DNA of 64,000 nucleotides from Phycisphaerae bacterium (GTDB lineage: Bacteria; Planctomycetota; Phycisphaerae; JAJVII01), in assembly GCA_022072085.1 (NCBI GenBank), contig JAJVII010000045.1, forward strand, positions 1 to 64,000. The letters are read 5' to 3'. This document shows, piece by piece, positions 2,995-7,534 of this stretch. A model generated the notes under the pieces. The model had not been told where the DNA came from. It saw nothing but the letters and a program-made list of their open reading frames with translations, and ran no database searches. The translations under genes were made by a program, and so were the position numbers. The stretch's first letter is position 1. Every line of letters starts with the position of its first letter.

Positions 2995-4446
2995 ATGCTC
3001 CTGGATTCGCTGAGAACGCTGAACGACGCCGCCGAGACCTTCCTCAACGGCGTGCGCCGACGGATCGAGGAGCATGCCGGCGGCGTGTTCGGCGGGCACG
3101 TCGCGACCGTCACTCGCACAGACCAGTCGCCGCGATTCAAGGAGCGGCTGGCTAACGCTGGCGTATTCGATCACGACCTGCTCATGCGGGCGCCGGCCAA
3201 CCCGATGCTGCGATGCGACATGTCGCTGCGCGTGCTGGGGGTGGCCGGCCGACGGCGCGGTCGGCTGGCGGCGGTCGTCGCCCTGGATGGCCAGGAATTG
3301 ATCCGCCAGAGCCGGGCCCAGCGCGACGGCGACGACCCCGGGCCCTGGGCCCGGCTGTCGGGCGAAGGGCTGGCTGAGGCGCTTCGGTCGTTCCGCGATC
3401 CGCCGCGGCGGGCCTTCGTCGGCGTATGCAGCCCCAGCGGGTTCAGCGACGAGGCCATCGAGCGGGCCCACCTGCTGGCGGCGCCGCTGGTCGAGCGCGG
3501 CGGCGGCATGGTGCTGGTCAGCCCGCGGCCGGGCGGCGGGTGGCGGCTGCATCTGCTCGAGCACGACCGCCAGCCGTGGCATTTTCTCTTTGATCCCGAG
3601 CCCGAGGATGACAAGATAAGGCGCATCCACGCCGCCGTCGCCGACGCCCGGCTGGACGTGACGGCTGGGGGGCTGGTCGACGTTGAACTGGCCCGCGAAC
3701 TGGACGTGGAGGTTGGCCTGGTCCGCGCGGCGTTTGCGACCGAGGCCGGTCGAAATCCGCTGCTCCAGGTCCAGCGCGTCGAGGCCAATTTCGTGCTGGT
3801 CGGGCTGCCGGCCCTGGCATTCTCTGTCCCGGCAAGGAGCCATTCCATGTTTGACCGACTGCGAAGCCTGTTCGGCCTCCAGGGCTCGGAGCAGCGCAAG
3901 ATCGAGACGCTGGCGAGCCGACAGGCCGATCTGACCGCACGCCGCAAGCTCCTCTACGACCATGTCGACGGGCTGATCGCGCAGGAGGCCGAGTTGAAGC
4001 AGCGCGGCGTGGCCGCCGACTCTGACGCGTCGCGCCGGCGGATCGCCGGCGAGTTGGCCCAGGTGCGGCGGCGGATCGAGCAGGGCAACACGCTGCTGGG
4101 CCTGTTCAACCGCCAGATCGACGTGCTGAGCACGCACATCCACAACCTGACGCTCGTGTCGCAGGGCCGCAAGATCGACCTGCCGGACGTCGAGGCGATG
4201 ACCGCCGACGCCGTGCGGGCCGAGGAACTGCTGGAACGCGTCAAGGCCGACGCCGACTCCGTCGAGTCGCTCAGCGAGTCGGCGTCCGTGCCGATGGCCA
4301 GCAGGATGGAAGACGCGATCATGGCGGAGCTCAAGGGCGAAGCCGCCGCGGCCCAGGCCCCGGGCGAGCCCTCGGCCCAGCCGGAAAAGGCGTCGCCCGA
4401 GCAGCCGCAGAAACGCAAGGACCGCGATCGGCCGATGGCCGAGTGA
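2995..4446 (+). CDS. ESCRT-III-like protein with N-terminal domain and winged-helix-like segment
   Basis: 483 residues from the ATG at 2995, 14 bases after the kinase; the frame stays open further upstream but only as a shadow of the kinase. Residues 1-219 form a mixed domain I do not recognise. Residues about 220-272 have a helix-turn-helix then beta-wing pattern (LARELDVEVGLVRAAFA, then LLQVQRVEANFVLVG). From Met285 the protein becomes a helical module: MFDRLRSLFG, a basic helical hairpin (about 298-392), an acidic helix with Snf7-like spacing (LPDVEAMTADAVRAEELL), a short terminal helix (SRMEDAIMAELKG), then a disordered charged tail. A winged helix followed by a Snf7 core is the order seen in eukaryotic CHMP7. 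Family assignment is by pattern and needs profile or structure support. Confidence 0.7.
   Translation: MLLDSLRTLNDAAETFLNGVRRRIEEHAGGVFGGHVATVTRTDQSPRFKERLANAGVFDHDLLMRAPANPMLRCDMSLRVLGVAGRRRGRLAAVVALDGQELIRQSRAQRDGDDPGPWARLSGEGLAEALRSFRDPPRRAFVGVCSPSGFSDEAIERAHLLAAPLVERGGGMVLVSPRPGGGWRLHLLEHDRQPWHFLFDPEPEDDKIRRIHAAVADARLDVTAGGLVDVELARELDVEVGLVRAAFATEAGRNPLLQVQRVEANFVLVGLPALAFSVPARSHSMFDRLRSLFGLQGSEQRKIETLASRQADLTARRKLLYDHVDGLIAQEAELKQRGVAADSDASRRRIAGELAQVRRRIEQGNTLLGLFNRQIDVLSTHIHNLTLVSQGRKIDLPDVEAMTADAVRAEELLERVKADADSVESLSESASVPMASRMEDAIMAELKGEAAAAQAPGEPSAQPEKASPEQPQKRKDRDRPMAE
3834..3839 (+). promoter_or_regulatory. Internal ribosome binding site for a free ESCRT-like module
   Basis: AAGGAG sits 7 bases before an in-frame ATG at 3847 inside the preceding gene. 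Starting there gives a 199-residue protein, the same size as the next two ESCRT-like proteins (202 and 203). No stop separates the upstream part, so both a fused and a free form may be made. Confidence 0.55.
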
Positions 4447-4458
4447 GAGGGAGCCGAC

Positions 4459-5067
4459 ATGGGACTTCTCGAACTGATCACCGGCAGGAAAAAGGGTCTG
4501 ATGAGCATGACCCGCGCCGAGCTGCGGCAGCAGGAACTGCTGCTGGGCAAGCAGCGCGACGGGCTCATGAAGAAGATCGAGGACCTCGCAGCCGCCAAGC
4601 GGGAGATATTCGGCCGTGGCGCCAAGACCAAATCGCCCGAGGTCCGCCGGGCCCTGGCGATGGAGTTCGAGGCCCGCACGCAGGAGCAGGTTCTCTACGG
4701 CCGACAGCTCAACATCCGCAGCAAGGAGTTGCTGACGGTGACGCGCGTGCGGCTGGCCCGTGAGAACCGCGACCAGGCGCAGAAGCTGGGCATGGGCCGA
4801 ATCGCCGAGACCGACATGGTGCGGCTAGCGGCGATGATCGAGGACGACGCGGTCAGCGCGGAGGTTTACGGCCAGCGGCTGGACGAGTTGCTGGCTGGGG
4901 CGGCCGAGGCCGACAAGGCCGCGATGGGCGAGCCGACCGACGCGGCCGCGACGTTGATGCACGTCTGGGACCGCATGGACCGCGGCGTGCTGGCCGACGA
5001 GCAGGCGTTCGACGAAGCCGACGAAAAGATTCGCTCCCGCGCCCGCGGCCCGCTGGCGGAAGAGTGA
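4459..5067 (+). CDS. ESCRT-III-like helical protein, second subunit
   Basis: 202 residues, soluble and almost entirely helical. It starts with an amphipathic segment MGLLELITGRKK, like the membrane-inserting N-terminus of ESCRT-III subunits. A basic helical hairpin follows (about 18-50 and 58-108), then an acidic second half with a Vps2/Snf7-like helix (MVRLAAMIEDDAVSAEVYGQRL, 120-141) and a final acidic helix. The change from basic core to acidic tail is the charge layout of ESCRT-III proteins, whose tail folds back to autoinhibit. It lies 12 bases after the first ESCRT-like gene with a good ribosome site (gagaggga). Generic coiled coil or a PspA-like protein are alternatives. Confidence 0.65.
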   Translation: MGLLELITGRKKGLMSMTRAELRQQELLLGKQRDGLMKKIEDLAAAKREIFGRGAKTKSPEVRRALAMEFEARTQEQVLYGRQLNIRSKELLTVTRVRLARENRDQAQKLGMGRIAETDMVRLAAMIEDDAVSAEVYGQRLDELLAGAAEADKAAMGEPTDAAATLMHVWDRMDRGVLADEQAFDEADEKIRSRARGPLAEE

Positions 5068-5069
5068 AC

Positions 5070-5533
5070 GGCCACAGATGGACACAGATGAGCACAGATG
5101 CGGAAGGGGAGAGATGGGGGAAGAAAGAGACTTTCCGCATGCGGATGTGACTGCGCTGATACTTGGGGCGGCCTTCGAAGTTCACAACGTGCTGGGGCCG
5201 GGGTTTCTGGAGTCGGTCTATGAGACGGCCCTTGCTCACGAGTTGAGTCAGCGCGGCATTGCGTTTCAACGCCAGGTGCGGCTTCAGGTGAGGTACAAGA
5301 GTATTGCGGCGGGAGATTTTGTTGCGGACATCGTTGCGGCCGGCTGCGTCGTCATTGAGATTAAGGCTGCGGCCGGTAACCACGCGGAGCATGAAGCGCA
5401 GCTTCTGAACTATCTAAAGGCGACGGGCGTGAAGGTTGGCTTGTTGTTGAATTTCGGCGACGCGAGACTTCGTTACAAGCGAATGGTTTTCTAAGTCTCT
5501 TCTCATCCGTGTCATCTGTGTGCATCTGTGGCC
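5070..5533. mobile_element. Inverted-repeat cassette carrying a GxxExxY gene
   Basis: The segment is bounded by near-perfect inverted repeats: left arm 5070-5100 begins ggccacagatg and right arm 5504-5533 ends catctgtggcc. Each arm is itself a head-to-tail run of 10-11 base CACAGATG units. Inside is a single gene of visibly lower G+C. The cassette begins two bases after the stop of the second ESCRT-like gene and ends 21 bases before the start of the third, separating genes that otherwise follow each other closely. No transposase is encoded, so any movement would need help in trans. Confidence 0.7.
5114..5494 (+). CDS. GxxExxY family protein
   Basis: A 126-residue protein of the GxxExxY family, matching the usual family length from the ATG at 5114, which has a ribosome site (ggaagggga). 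An in-frame ATG at 5078 lies inside the terminal repeat and is less likely. The signature GPGFLESVYETAL is at residues 32-44. The D-(x)n-E-x-K core typical of a PD-(D/E)xK nuclease fold is visible as FVADIVAAG...VVIEIKA, and the C-terminal RYKRMVF is characteristic. The biological role of the family is not established. Codon use is less G+C-biased than its neighbours, consistent with recent arrival together with the flanking repeats. Confidence 0.9.
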   Translation: MGEERDFPHADVTALILGAAFEVHNVLGPGFLESVYETALAHELSQRGIAFQRQVRLQVRYKSIAAGDFVADIVAAGCVVIEIKAAAGNHAEHEAQLLNYLKATGVKVGLLLNFGDARLRYKRMVF

Positions 5534-5554
5534 ATTCTCCGGAGCCCGCGAATC

Positions 5555-6166
5555 ATGGCACTGTTCAAGAGCAAAGACGAGCGGAAGATGGAGCGGGAGG
5601 TGCGGATCCGCCAGGGGATCCGGCAGATCGAGAAGGCCATCCGCCAGCAGGCGAAGTTCTCCGACGAGTTCATCGCCAACGCCCAGCGGGCCAGGCGGGT
5701 CGGCGACTCGGGGCAATACCAGTTCATCCGCAACGCCCTCAAGAAGACCGCGACGGTCAAGAAGATGCTCGAGCGGCAGCTCCTGGCCATCAAGAACGCC
5801 CTGCTCATCAAGCAGCAGGCCGAGGCCAACGAGTTGTTCGCCCGCTCGATGGGCGAGATGAGCCGGGAGATCAGCCGCATTTTCGGCGCGACCGACCTGG
5901 TCAAGACGCAGGCCCAGTGGGAGAAGGCCATCGCCCAGGCCCAGACGATGGAAGAGCGGATGTCGATCTTCCTGGACAGCATCGAGGACCTGGCTGCCGC
6001 CGACGCCGAATCCAGCCAGCAGGTCGTCAGCGACGAAGAGATCGACCGCATGATCGAGGCCGACGTGCTGGCGTCTGAGAAGAAGGAACTGGACGAACTG
6101 CGGAGCCTGACCGACGAGATCGAGTCCGAACTGGGCCGGGGCGAATCGACGGGCAAGGAGAAGTAG
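5555..6166 (+). CDS. ESCRT-III-like (Vps2/CHMP2-type) helical protein, third subunit
   Basis: 203 residues from the ATG at 5555, just outside the inverted-repeat cassette; an upstream GTG lies inside the repeat. The layout is the most Vps2-like of the three: short N-terminus MALFKSKDERK, basic helical hairpin at 12-50 and 53-105 (ending EMSREISRIF), then a helix pair WEKAIAQAQTMEERMSIFLDSIEDL (122-146), an acidic linker, and DEEIDRMIEADV (160-171). This order parallels the region of CHMP2 that runs from its 'MMEFERQ' helix to 'VLDELG'. The C-terminal helix ELDELRSLTDEIESEL (178-193) is a candidate MIT-interacting motif. The gene is followed within 7 bases by a small membrane-protein gene and then the MIT-AAA ATPase. 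Confidence 0.7.
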   Translation: MALFKSKDERKMEREVRIRQGIRQIEKAIRQQAKFSDEFIANAQRARRVGDSGQYQFIRNALKKTATVKKMLERQLLAIKNALLIKQQAEANELFARSMGEMSREISRIFGATDLVKTQAQWEKAIAQAQTMEERMSIFLDSIEDLAAADAESSQQVVSDEEIDRMIEADVLASEKKELDELRSLTDEIESELGRGESTGKEK

Positions 6167-6173
6167 GCTGGCC

Positions 6174-6383
6174 ATGATCGGTTTCGTCTTCACCGCCATC
6201 GCCTCCGCGTTTCTCATCTTCTACGGCCTGTGCCTGGCGGCCGGCTGGCCGGTGAACGTCGTAAAAGGCATCGGCCTGCTGGAGCGCCGCTCGCGCGGGC
6301 TGCGCGTGACGATCGGCGTGCTGATGATGGCCGCCGGCGTGCTGGTCCTGGTCATCGAGGCGAAAGGCGTCATCGGCTCATGA
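6174..6383 (+). CDS. Small two-helix membrane protein, unknown
   Basis: Not recognised. The 69-residue protein has a hydrophobic helix at about residues 2-24, a basic loop (LERRSRGLR, 36-44) and a second helix at about 46-64. Its stop overlaps the start of the AAA ATPase gene (ATGA), which implies translational coupling and roughly matched synthesis. By position it could anchor or recruit the AAA ATPase or the ESCRT-like filaments at the membrane; this is inference from context only. Confidence 0.7.
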   Translation: MIGFVFTAIASAFLIFYGLCLAAGWPVNVVKGIGLLERRSRGLRVTIGVLMMAAGVLVLVIEAKGVIGS

Positions 6384-7534
6384 CGGTTTCCTTCGACACC
6401 TTCGAGCACTTCAAGGAGCGCGGGCTGGCGTCGCGGCGGCGCGGCGACTACCGGGCCGCCCGGGTCTACCTGCTCCAGGCCGCCAAGGCGATGACCGAGT
6501 TGGCCGAGTCCGTCGCCGGCGAACTGCGGGCCGAGCGGCGACGCACCGCCGCGCGGCTGCTGGAACTGGCCCGCGACTGCGAGCGGATGGGCGAGCGGGA
6601 CGTCCCGGCGGCCGGTCGTCGCGGCGGGCAGGCCGGCTCGCGTGCGCCGGTGGACGCCCGCGGGGAGGATTCGGAAGCGACGCCGGAGGACTGGGTCCTG
6701 CGCGAGCGGCCGACGGTCTCGTTCGACGACGTGGCCGGGCTGGACGAGGCCAAGGCCGAGATTCGCATGAAGATGATCTACCCGGTCGCCCAGCCGGCGC
6801 TGGCGGAGCGCTTCGGCGTCCGCGCGGGCGGCGGGCTGCTGCTCTACGGCCCGCCGGGCTGCGGCAAGACGATGATCGCCCGGGCGGTGGCAGGCGAACT
6901 GGAGGCGACGTTCTTTGCCGTCTCGCCGGCGCAGATTCTGAGCAAGTGGGTCGGGCAGGCCGAGCAGAACGTGCAGAGGCTTTTCGCCGTCGCCCGGGCC
7001 GAGCCGGCGGCCGTCATCTTCATCGACGAGATCGAGGCCCTCGTGCCGCGCCGCGCCGAGTCGGCTGCGGGCGGGTCGGCGGTCATGAGCCGCGTCGTGC
7101 CGCAGATTCTGACCGAGATGGAGGGCGTCGGCGGGCGGTCGCCCAATCCGCTGCTGTTCCTGGCGGCGACCAACGAGCCGGCGGCGATGGACCCTGCGGT
7201 CCTGCGGCCCGGGCGGTTCGACGAGAAGGTCTACATCCCGCTGCCGGATGCGCCGGCGCGGTATCGCATGCTGGAGCTGTTCCTGGCCCCGCGTCCGCTG
7301 GCCGACGACGTGGACCTTGGGGCCCTGTGCGACCGGCTGGAGGGGTTCAGCGGGGCCGACATCCGCCGCGTCTGCGAGCGGGCCGCGACGATCCCGTTCC
7401 TGGAGGCCGTGAACGGCCAGGCCGAGCGGACGATCGCGTGGGCCGACATCGAGCAGGTGCTGTCGGCCAGCCGCCCGTCGGTGACGCCGGCGATGCTGGC
7501 CCGCTACGATCGGTTCGCCGCCCGGGGGGAGTGA
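6380..7534 (+). CDS. MIT-domain AAA ATPase, Vps4/CdvC-like
   Basis: 384 residues from the ATG overlapping the upstream stop. Residues 4-73 form a three-helix segment (FEHFKERGLASRRRGDYRAARVYLLQAAKAM...RLLELARDCERM, quoted in part) with the spacing of an MIT domain. After a linker the AAA core begins (FDDVAGLDEAK, 115-125). It has Walker A GPPGCGKT (157-164), pore loop SKWVGQ (188-193), Walker B IFIDEIEAL (213-221), ATN (263-265) and arginine fingers in RPGRFD (276-281). YIPLPD (285-290) and the tail RPSVTPAMLARYDRF (365-379) are typical of Vps4, katanin and CdvC. There is no transmembrane helix, protease domain or Vps4-style beta insertion. Vps4 enzymes extract ESCRT-III subunits from filaments through the pore; the three neighbouring genes are the natural substrates. 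Confidence 0.85.
   Translation: MTVSFDTFEHFKERGLASRRRGDYRAARVYLLQAAKAMTELAESVAGELRAERRRTAARLLELARDCERMGERDVPAAGRRGGQAGSRAPVDARGEDSEATPEDWVLRERPTVSFDDVAGLDEAKAEIRMKMIYPVAQPALAERFGVRAGGGLLLYGPPGCGKTMIARAVAGELEATFFAVSPAQILSKWVGQAEQNVQRLFAVARAEPAAVIFIDEIEALVPRRAESAAGGSAVMSRVVPQILTEMEGVGGRSPNPLLFLAATNEPAAMDPAVLRPGRFDEKVYIPLPDAPARYRMLELFLAPRPLADDVDLGALCDRLEGFSGADIRRVCERAATIPFLEAVNGQAERTIAWADIEQVLSASRPSVTPAMLARYDRFAARGE

Follow-up and report, generated by a model that had tools for sequence, protein, structure and literature searches.

Within the window, that is, the whole stretch of 64,000 nucleotides analysed here, one gene appears to contain a second signal for the initiation of translation in the middle of its reading frame, and the question that arises is whether this gene is read as one protein or as two, and what two such proteins could do together. 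The fused ORF (positions 2995–4446, on the + strand, as are all the features described here) encodes 483 aa which, judging from its translation, its homologues and its AF2 model, would comprise an N domain with a winged helix, a linker, and a module (M) resembling ESCRT-III. Direct reading of the sequence agrees with the original prediction that a Shine-Dalgarno (SD) sequence, AAGGAG (3834–3839), stands 7 nt (CCATTCC) 5′ of an ATG (3847–3849) that is in frame with the ATG at 2995 and shares with it the stop TGA at 4444–4446. This ATG, which is Met285 of the fusion, is marked as a start by the alignment of homologues, by the start of the neighboring gene B, and by the region in which the split genes of other classes begin. 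The short product (3847–4446) would have 199 aa, arranged, according to translation and AF2, as a helix a0 (residues 285–294), an a1/a2 hairpin (299–340 and 344–391), and C-terminal helices.

It had also been proposed that the ATG coincides with a domain boundary, and that the 199-residue product equals its neighbors in size, and both points hold, the neighbors being of 202 aa (4459–5067) and 203 aa (5555–6166). In the AF2 model of the fusion, built with 47 homologues (pLDDT 84), residues 1–272 (2995–3810), the part that forms a separate ORF outside the class, are ordered; residues 273–284 (3811–3846), the predicted disordered linker that bears the internal ribosome-binding site, fall below a pLDDT of 50, with pairwise identities mostly of 10–30% across homologues; and a new helix begins precisely at residue 285, the internal Met. 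The N domain has one recognizable winged helix, at about residues 203–272, whose structure matches GntR and Zalpha winged helices (Z 7–8). The most likely interpretation, as far as sequence can indicate, is that of one gene with two products, the longer of which would bear an anchor while the shorter would serve as a free subunit of a filament; taken as a whole, with an origin by fusion, a retained start, and a division of roles between anchor and polymer, we consider this reading to be probable.

What these proteins are has to be judged from the cassette, in which the order kinase, fusion, B, C and AAA recurs across homologous loci. The first gene (1913–2980) encodes a Ser/Thr protein kinase (Pfam Pkinase, 1.5e-39) with a C-terminal double zinc ribbon (Zn_ribbon_3/DZR), and at most homologous loci a kinase gene precedes the fusion. 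Gene B (202 aa, 4459–5067) is a paralogue of the module, with which hhalign aligns it Met to Met, that is, the start of B with the internal Met (E 1.9e-6 and 1.5e-7, probability 94%); the hhalign comparison of C with M or B is not significant, M being paralogous to B only. Gene C (203 aa, 5555–6166) is ESCRT-III/Snf7-like, since its AF2 model has the five-helix ESCRT-III topology (a1–a5) with a long a1/a2 hairpin, the structures closest to it are ESCRT-III proteins from Asgard, Sulfolobus, human, and yeast, at modest scores (VIA Z about 10.5; Foldseek E no lower than 0.15), and it matches Snf7 (8wb6) at 1.8 Å over 102 residues (Z 10.1). When family C was widened with members from outside the class, its PDB profile returned ESCRT-III chains only (CHMP3, Snf7, and CHMP2A; 8 matches, E 0.017–1.6), and Pfam Snf7 was matched by 16 of its 35 members, with a best E of 2.7e-6, and by several of them over nearly the full model. 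Ten relatives of C, scanned singly, all stayed under the Snf7 cut-off of 27.3 bits, Snf7 was matched neither by P0005 alone nor by the in-class members of C, and a Pfam Snf7 scan of the genome itself gave no match. Likewise, M, B, and C as encoded in the window had no ESCRT match in Pfam or NCBIfam, members from outside the class being needed.

The last gene of the cassette (6380–7534) encodes a single-domain AAA ATPase (Pfam AAA, 1.3e-36) of CdvC/Vps4/Cdc48-like type, with an N-terminal helical region, and its start is overlapped by a small hydrophobic ORF of membrane type (69 aa, 6174–6383), of which no homologue was found in other cassettes. The Vps4-type C-terminal helix (Vps4_C) was detected in 31 of the 33 AAA family members, with a best value of 3.2e-7; a similar tail is present in Cdc48 D2. 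Among three AAAs tested against NCBIfam, CdvC (NF041006) was the best model for two and CDC48 for P0007, all under the equivalog cut-off, and the PDB profile search was dominated by two-domain Cdc48/p97. On the 5′ side of the kinase, a small membrane-type protein (1474–1875) has weak homologues (27–36%) just upstream of the cassette at nine other loci, and by this recurrence it may belong to the cassette. The adjacency of MurG, considered as a link to a division cluster, is not present at other loci.

As for the module, it is by fold and paralogy that it is assigned, putatively, to ESCRT-III. Its hairpin matches Vipp1, PspA, Asgard ESCRT-IIIB, CdvB2, and Shrub, and it also matches unrelated hairpins, so that the resemblance is not specific. 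Its first helix is amphipathic, with a hydrophobic moment of 0.60–0.65 beginning at the internal Met, higher than elsewhere within 40–60 residues, and it occupies the position where ESCRT-III and PspA carry their membrane-binding a0. The sequence profile of the module matched no ESCRT-III chain in the PDB, the PDB profile searches with A1, A3, A6, and A7 giving designed coiled coils, TPRs or nothing, and one member of A1, the family of the short product, matches Snf7 at E 0.011.

An alternative is that the cassette is not ESCRT at all, and that M, B, and C are generic coiled coils served by a Cdc48-like AAA, with a role, for example, in proteostasis or in defence, while the dual start would still be real. 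Long helical hairpins do match many folds, P0007 is slightly closer to CDC48 than to CdvC, and the N-terminal helical region of the AAA was matched by TPR-like models and not by the MIT model. However, a generic coiled coil would hardly explain why every one of the PDB matches of family C is an ESCRT-III chain, why nearly half of that family reaches Snf7, why gene C should fold into the five helices, or why three proteins of Snf7 size should precede a CdvC-like AAA; besides, none of the three module proteins matches a defence family, the PADLOC matches being confined to the generic folds of the kinase and the AAA, for which reason the defence version was discarded. We therefore consider the alternative unlikely, and the cassette looks ESCRT-like, C matching Snf7/CHMP3 by sequence and predicted fold, and the AAA resembling CdvC/Vps4.

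Fusion homologues are present in 108 of the 397 genomes sampled from the class Phycisphaerae, mostly metagenome assemblies, and in a second collection nearly every named match is an assembly of Phycisphaerae or Planctomycetota; a planctomycete cassette also appears in a record titled Alphaproteobacteria (L177), a title that is probably wrong. The scored set consists of 104 distinct same-class copies in seven families, which are mutually related, and whose counts are consequently not independent; all 104 are single open in-frame fusions, the apparent fragments that might have been taken for in-class split copies sitting at contig ends, and 102 of the 104 have an ATG or GTG within −4 to +2 codons of the junction. 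Met occupies the internal-start position in 93% of the homologues, against a background of 2.2%. An SD 4-mer with proper spacing precedes 90 of the 102 internal starts (about 88%), a count in which the start was picked among near neighbors, thereby favoring a good SD, as against 63 of 890 (7%) of the other in-frame ATGs within the same genes, which served as background; with the first ATG only, the count is 86 of 102. The stronger AGGAG/GGAGG is found at 51 of 102 internal starts (50%) and at 3 of the 890 control ATGs (0.3%). Shuffles of synonymous codons retain 52.6 ± 3.8 of the 90 4-mers and 24.3 ± 3.5 of the 51 stronger motifs, and the contrast remains when a single sequence is taken per cluster, both at 50% identity (16/19 versus 9/172 control ATGs) and at 45% (9/11 versus 5/102). 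A Glu codon conserved at −4 supplies much of the SD, and part of the signal therefore belongs to the protein level, which is why the shuffle expectation is not zero, and the shuffle test allows for it; the core GGAG, while concentrated in one codon phase, occurs in the other two as well (38/12/1). Within the class, then, the fusion is always kept and its ribosome site is conserved, the outcome named beforehand as adverse to the original prediction having been a constant fusion with no conserved site and detection of the long product only.

The site also bears the marks of a genuine start at the level of the mRNA. Local folding is weaker there (about −7 versus about −10.5 kcal/mol per 40 nt), GC falls exactly at the internal start in the same-class homologues, and GC3, which averages 0.77 over the gene, drops to 0.46–0.53 at codons −3, −2, +4, and +5; genes B and C have comparable dips after their own genuine starts. 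The SD is, moreover, commoner at the internal site than at the cassette starts of B (9/38) or C (40/62). On these sequence signs, the internal site is far more than a product of chance. Five copies (L060, L082, L116, L117, and L118) are without the internal start or the SD, and several members of family f19 have a weak SD. Two of the five, L082 and L060, are second fused copies, in genomes G366 and G357 respectively, that retain neither the SD nor the internal ATG, and they are possibly a paralogue making the long form only.

Outside the class, the two parts of the fusion are found apart. The original prediction had named, as something to look for in related genomes, split forms of the gene in which a stop precedes the ATG, and it is in the other classes that they were found: in 12 of 12 scorable loci the N part and the module are separate ORFs, the first closing with a stop and the second beginning at the position of the internal Met or no more than a few codons away from it (for example, MLDKIRKLLG in a split module and MFDRLRSLFG in the fusion). 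At the junction of L217 a TGA and an in-frame TTG are immediately adjacent, that of L213 reads TAGccATG, and in L188 the ATG is preceded, at a distance of 30 nt, by a TAG in the same frame. These N-termini were placed by HMM, the MAFFT alignment A7 having misplaced them, and no fused copy was seen among the out-of-class loci.

The economical reading of the split state outside the class, together with the Met-to-Met alignment of gene B, is a stop-loss fusion of two genes in the ancestor of the Phycisphaerae, with the start of the second retained by selection; from the distribution, we infer that the direction was fusion and not fission. In that ancestor, a gene for the N domain and its winged helix would have stood beside a gene for the ESCRT-III-like module, the stop codon of the first would have been lost, and the SD and start codon of the second would then have been preserved by selection. 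The original proposal of an internal start in a fused gene thus finds support, at the sequence level, in the conserved ribosome site and in the split relatives. Outside the class, in L206–L213, gene B is often duplicated, giving the order N, M, B, B2, and C, from which it follows that the ESCRT-like subunit set grew by duplication.

Could the same signals have accumulated for reasons other than initiation? An SD-like sequence placed, as this one is, right within the disordered stretch that joins two domains could, through its match to the anti-SD, slow the ribosome and give the N domain time to fold, in which case the Met would be incidental and only the long protein would be made; however, a pause needs no start codon, and yet Met occurs there far above background, and the lower mRNA structure and GC3, as well as the split homologues that begin at this point, correspond to initiation, for which reasons we regard a mere pause as improbable. 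The site could otherwise be a disused relic of the two-gene ancestor, and outside the class the genes are indeed split, but among homologues of about 30% identity, whose linker has been randomised, the ATG and SD persist, the latter also in most of the 45% clusters, when a disused site would have decayed, and we consider it very unlikely that it is only a vestige. Finally, that the short form comes from proteolysis in a linker whose predicted disorder would expose it to proteases, the start signal contributing little, has a very slight probability, given that the linker has no conserved protease motif and that the start signal is conserved at the nucleotide level.

Returning to the reading of two products from one gene, a single mRNA would give both the 483-aa form, in which the winged-helix domain is tethered to the module, and the 199-aa form, with its amphipathic N-terminal helix. 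The long form would be the minority, an anchor or nucleator whose winged-helix domain could recruit the polymer or time its assembly, and the short form, whose a0 would be free as in an ordinary subunit, would form the bulk and copolymerise with B and C on the membrane; the CdvC/Vps4-like AAA would recycle the polymer, and the cassette kinase could possibly control it. That the long form nucleates and the short one polymerises is suggested by analogy with two known systems, without membership of either being claimed. In the cyanobacterial carboxysome, one gene, that of CcmM, gives by an in-frame internal start a long anchor and a short scaffold form (PMC11005335), a bacterial precedent for long and short forms arising in this way, although the proteins are unrelated, and in the present case sister classes still show the ancestral arrangement of two genes. 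CHMP7, a winged-helix/ESCRT-III chimera (ESCRT-II/ESCRT-III), initiates polymerisation under the control of phosphorylation (PMC7618577), and like the fusion it joins a winged-helix domain and an ESCRT-III-fold module in one chain; however, CHMP7 has a pair of winged helices, where here there is a recognizable one plus an unrecognized N domain, and the present system is bacterial, with a module predicted to be made free as well through the inner start.

The cassette also resembles the archaeal Cdv/ESCRT-III-Vps4 systems (PMC10936438) in that several proteins of Snf7 size are encoded with a single-ring AAA and have a winged-helix partner upstream, but it belongs to Planctomycetota, its sequences lie below most curated cut-offs, and it includes a kinase. 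With PspA/Vipp1, the bacterial ESCRT-III, it shares the helical hairpin fold with an N-terminal amphipathic helix, whereas here there is a multi-gene cassette with an AAA and the PspA systems are without one (PMC7615534); the PspA_IM30 family had no matches in the whole genome (97% complete), while 9 of 14 control genomes were positive. Published surveys confine systems of Vps4 plus ESCRT-III to archaea and eukaryotes (PMC7615534, PMC10936438), statements to which a bacterial ESCRT-III-like, CdvC/Vps4-like cassette runs counter, and no description of such a bacterial cassette was found in the open-access literature.

Planctomycetota are without FtsZ (PMC6952346), in line with which no tubulin/FtsZ match was found in this whole genome, and because of this the cassette offers a candidate that can be tested for how these cells carry out membrane scission, yet it is present in only those 108 of the 397 class genomes sampled. 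More tentatively, and as a possibility to which we would give somewhat less than even weight, FtsZ-less Planctomycetota could carry a complete bacterial machine of the ESCRT-III/Vps4 type, in which the Phycisphaerae fusion with its retained start would fix the ratio of anchor or nucleator to free subunit, a CHMP7 and its polymer in one gene, for membrane scission or division. The case is, moreover, a well-resolved one of gene fusion, apparently with the retention of both ancestral products, the sister classes still having two genes and the fused lineage conserving the inner start. In-frame internal starts are already known; what would be new is a fusion that keeps both products while the two-gene state is still alive in sister classes.

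Between genes B and C, the window carries a PDDEXK_3 gene of GxxExxY type (5066–5537) flanked by 26-nt inverted repeats (92%), and the genome has six PDDEXK_3 genes in all, each of them bounded by long inverted repeats that consist of quasi-repeats of 10–12 nt and differ from gene to gene. The repeat here, GGCCACAGATGNACACAGATG (5070–5090 and 5513–5533), has 41 genomic matches when up to 2 mismatches are allowed, whereas its reversed control has none, and its copies often form inverted pairs 60–75 nt apart, in a REPIN-like manner.
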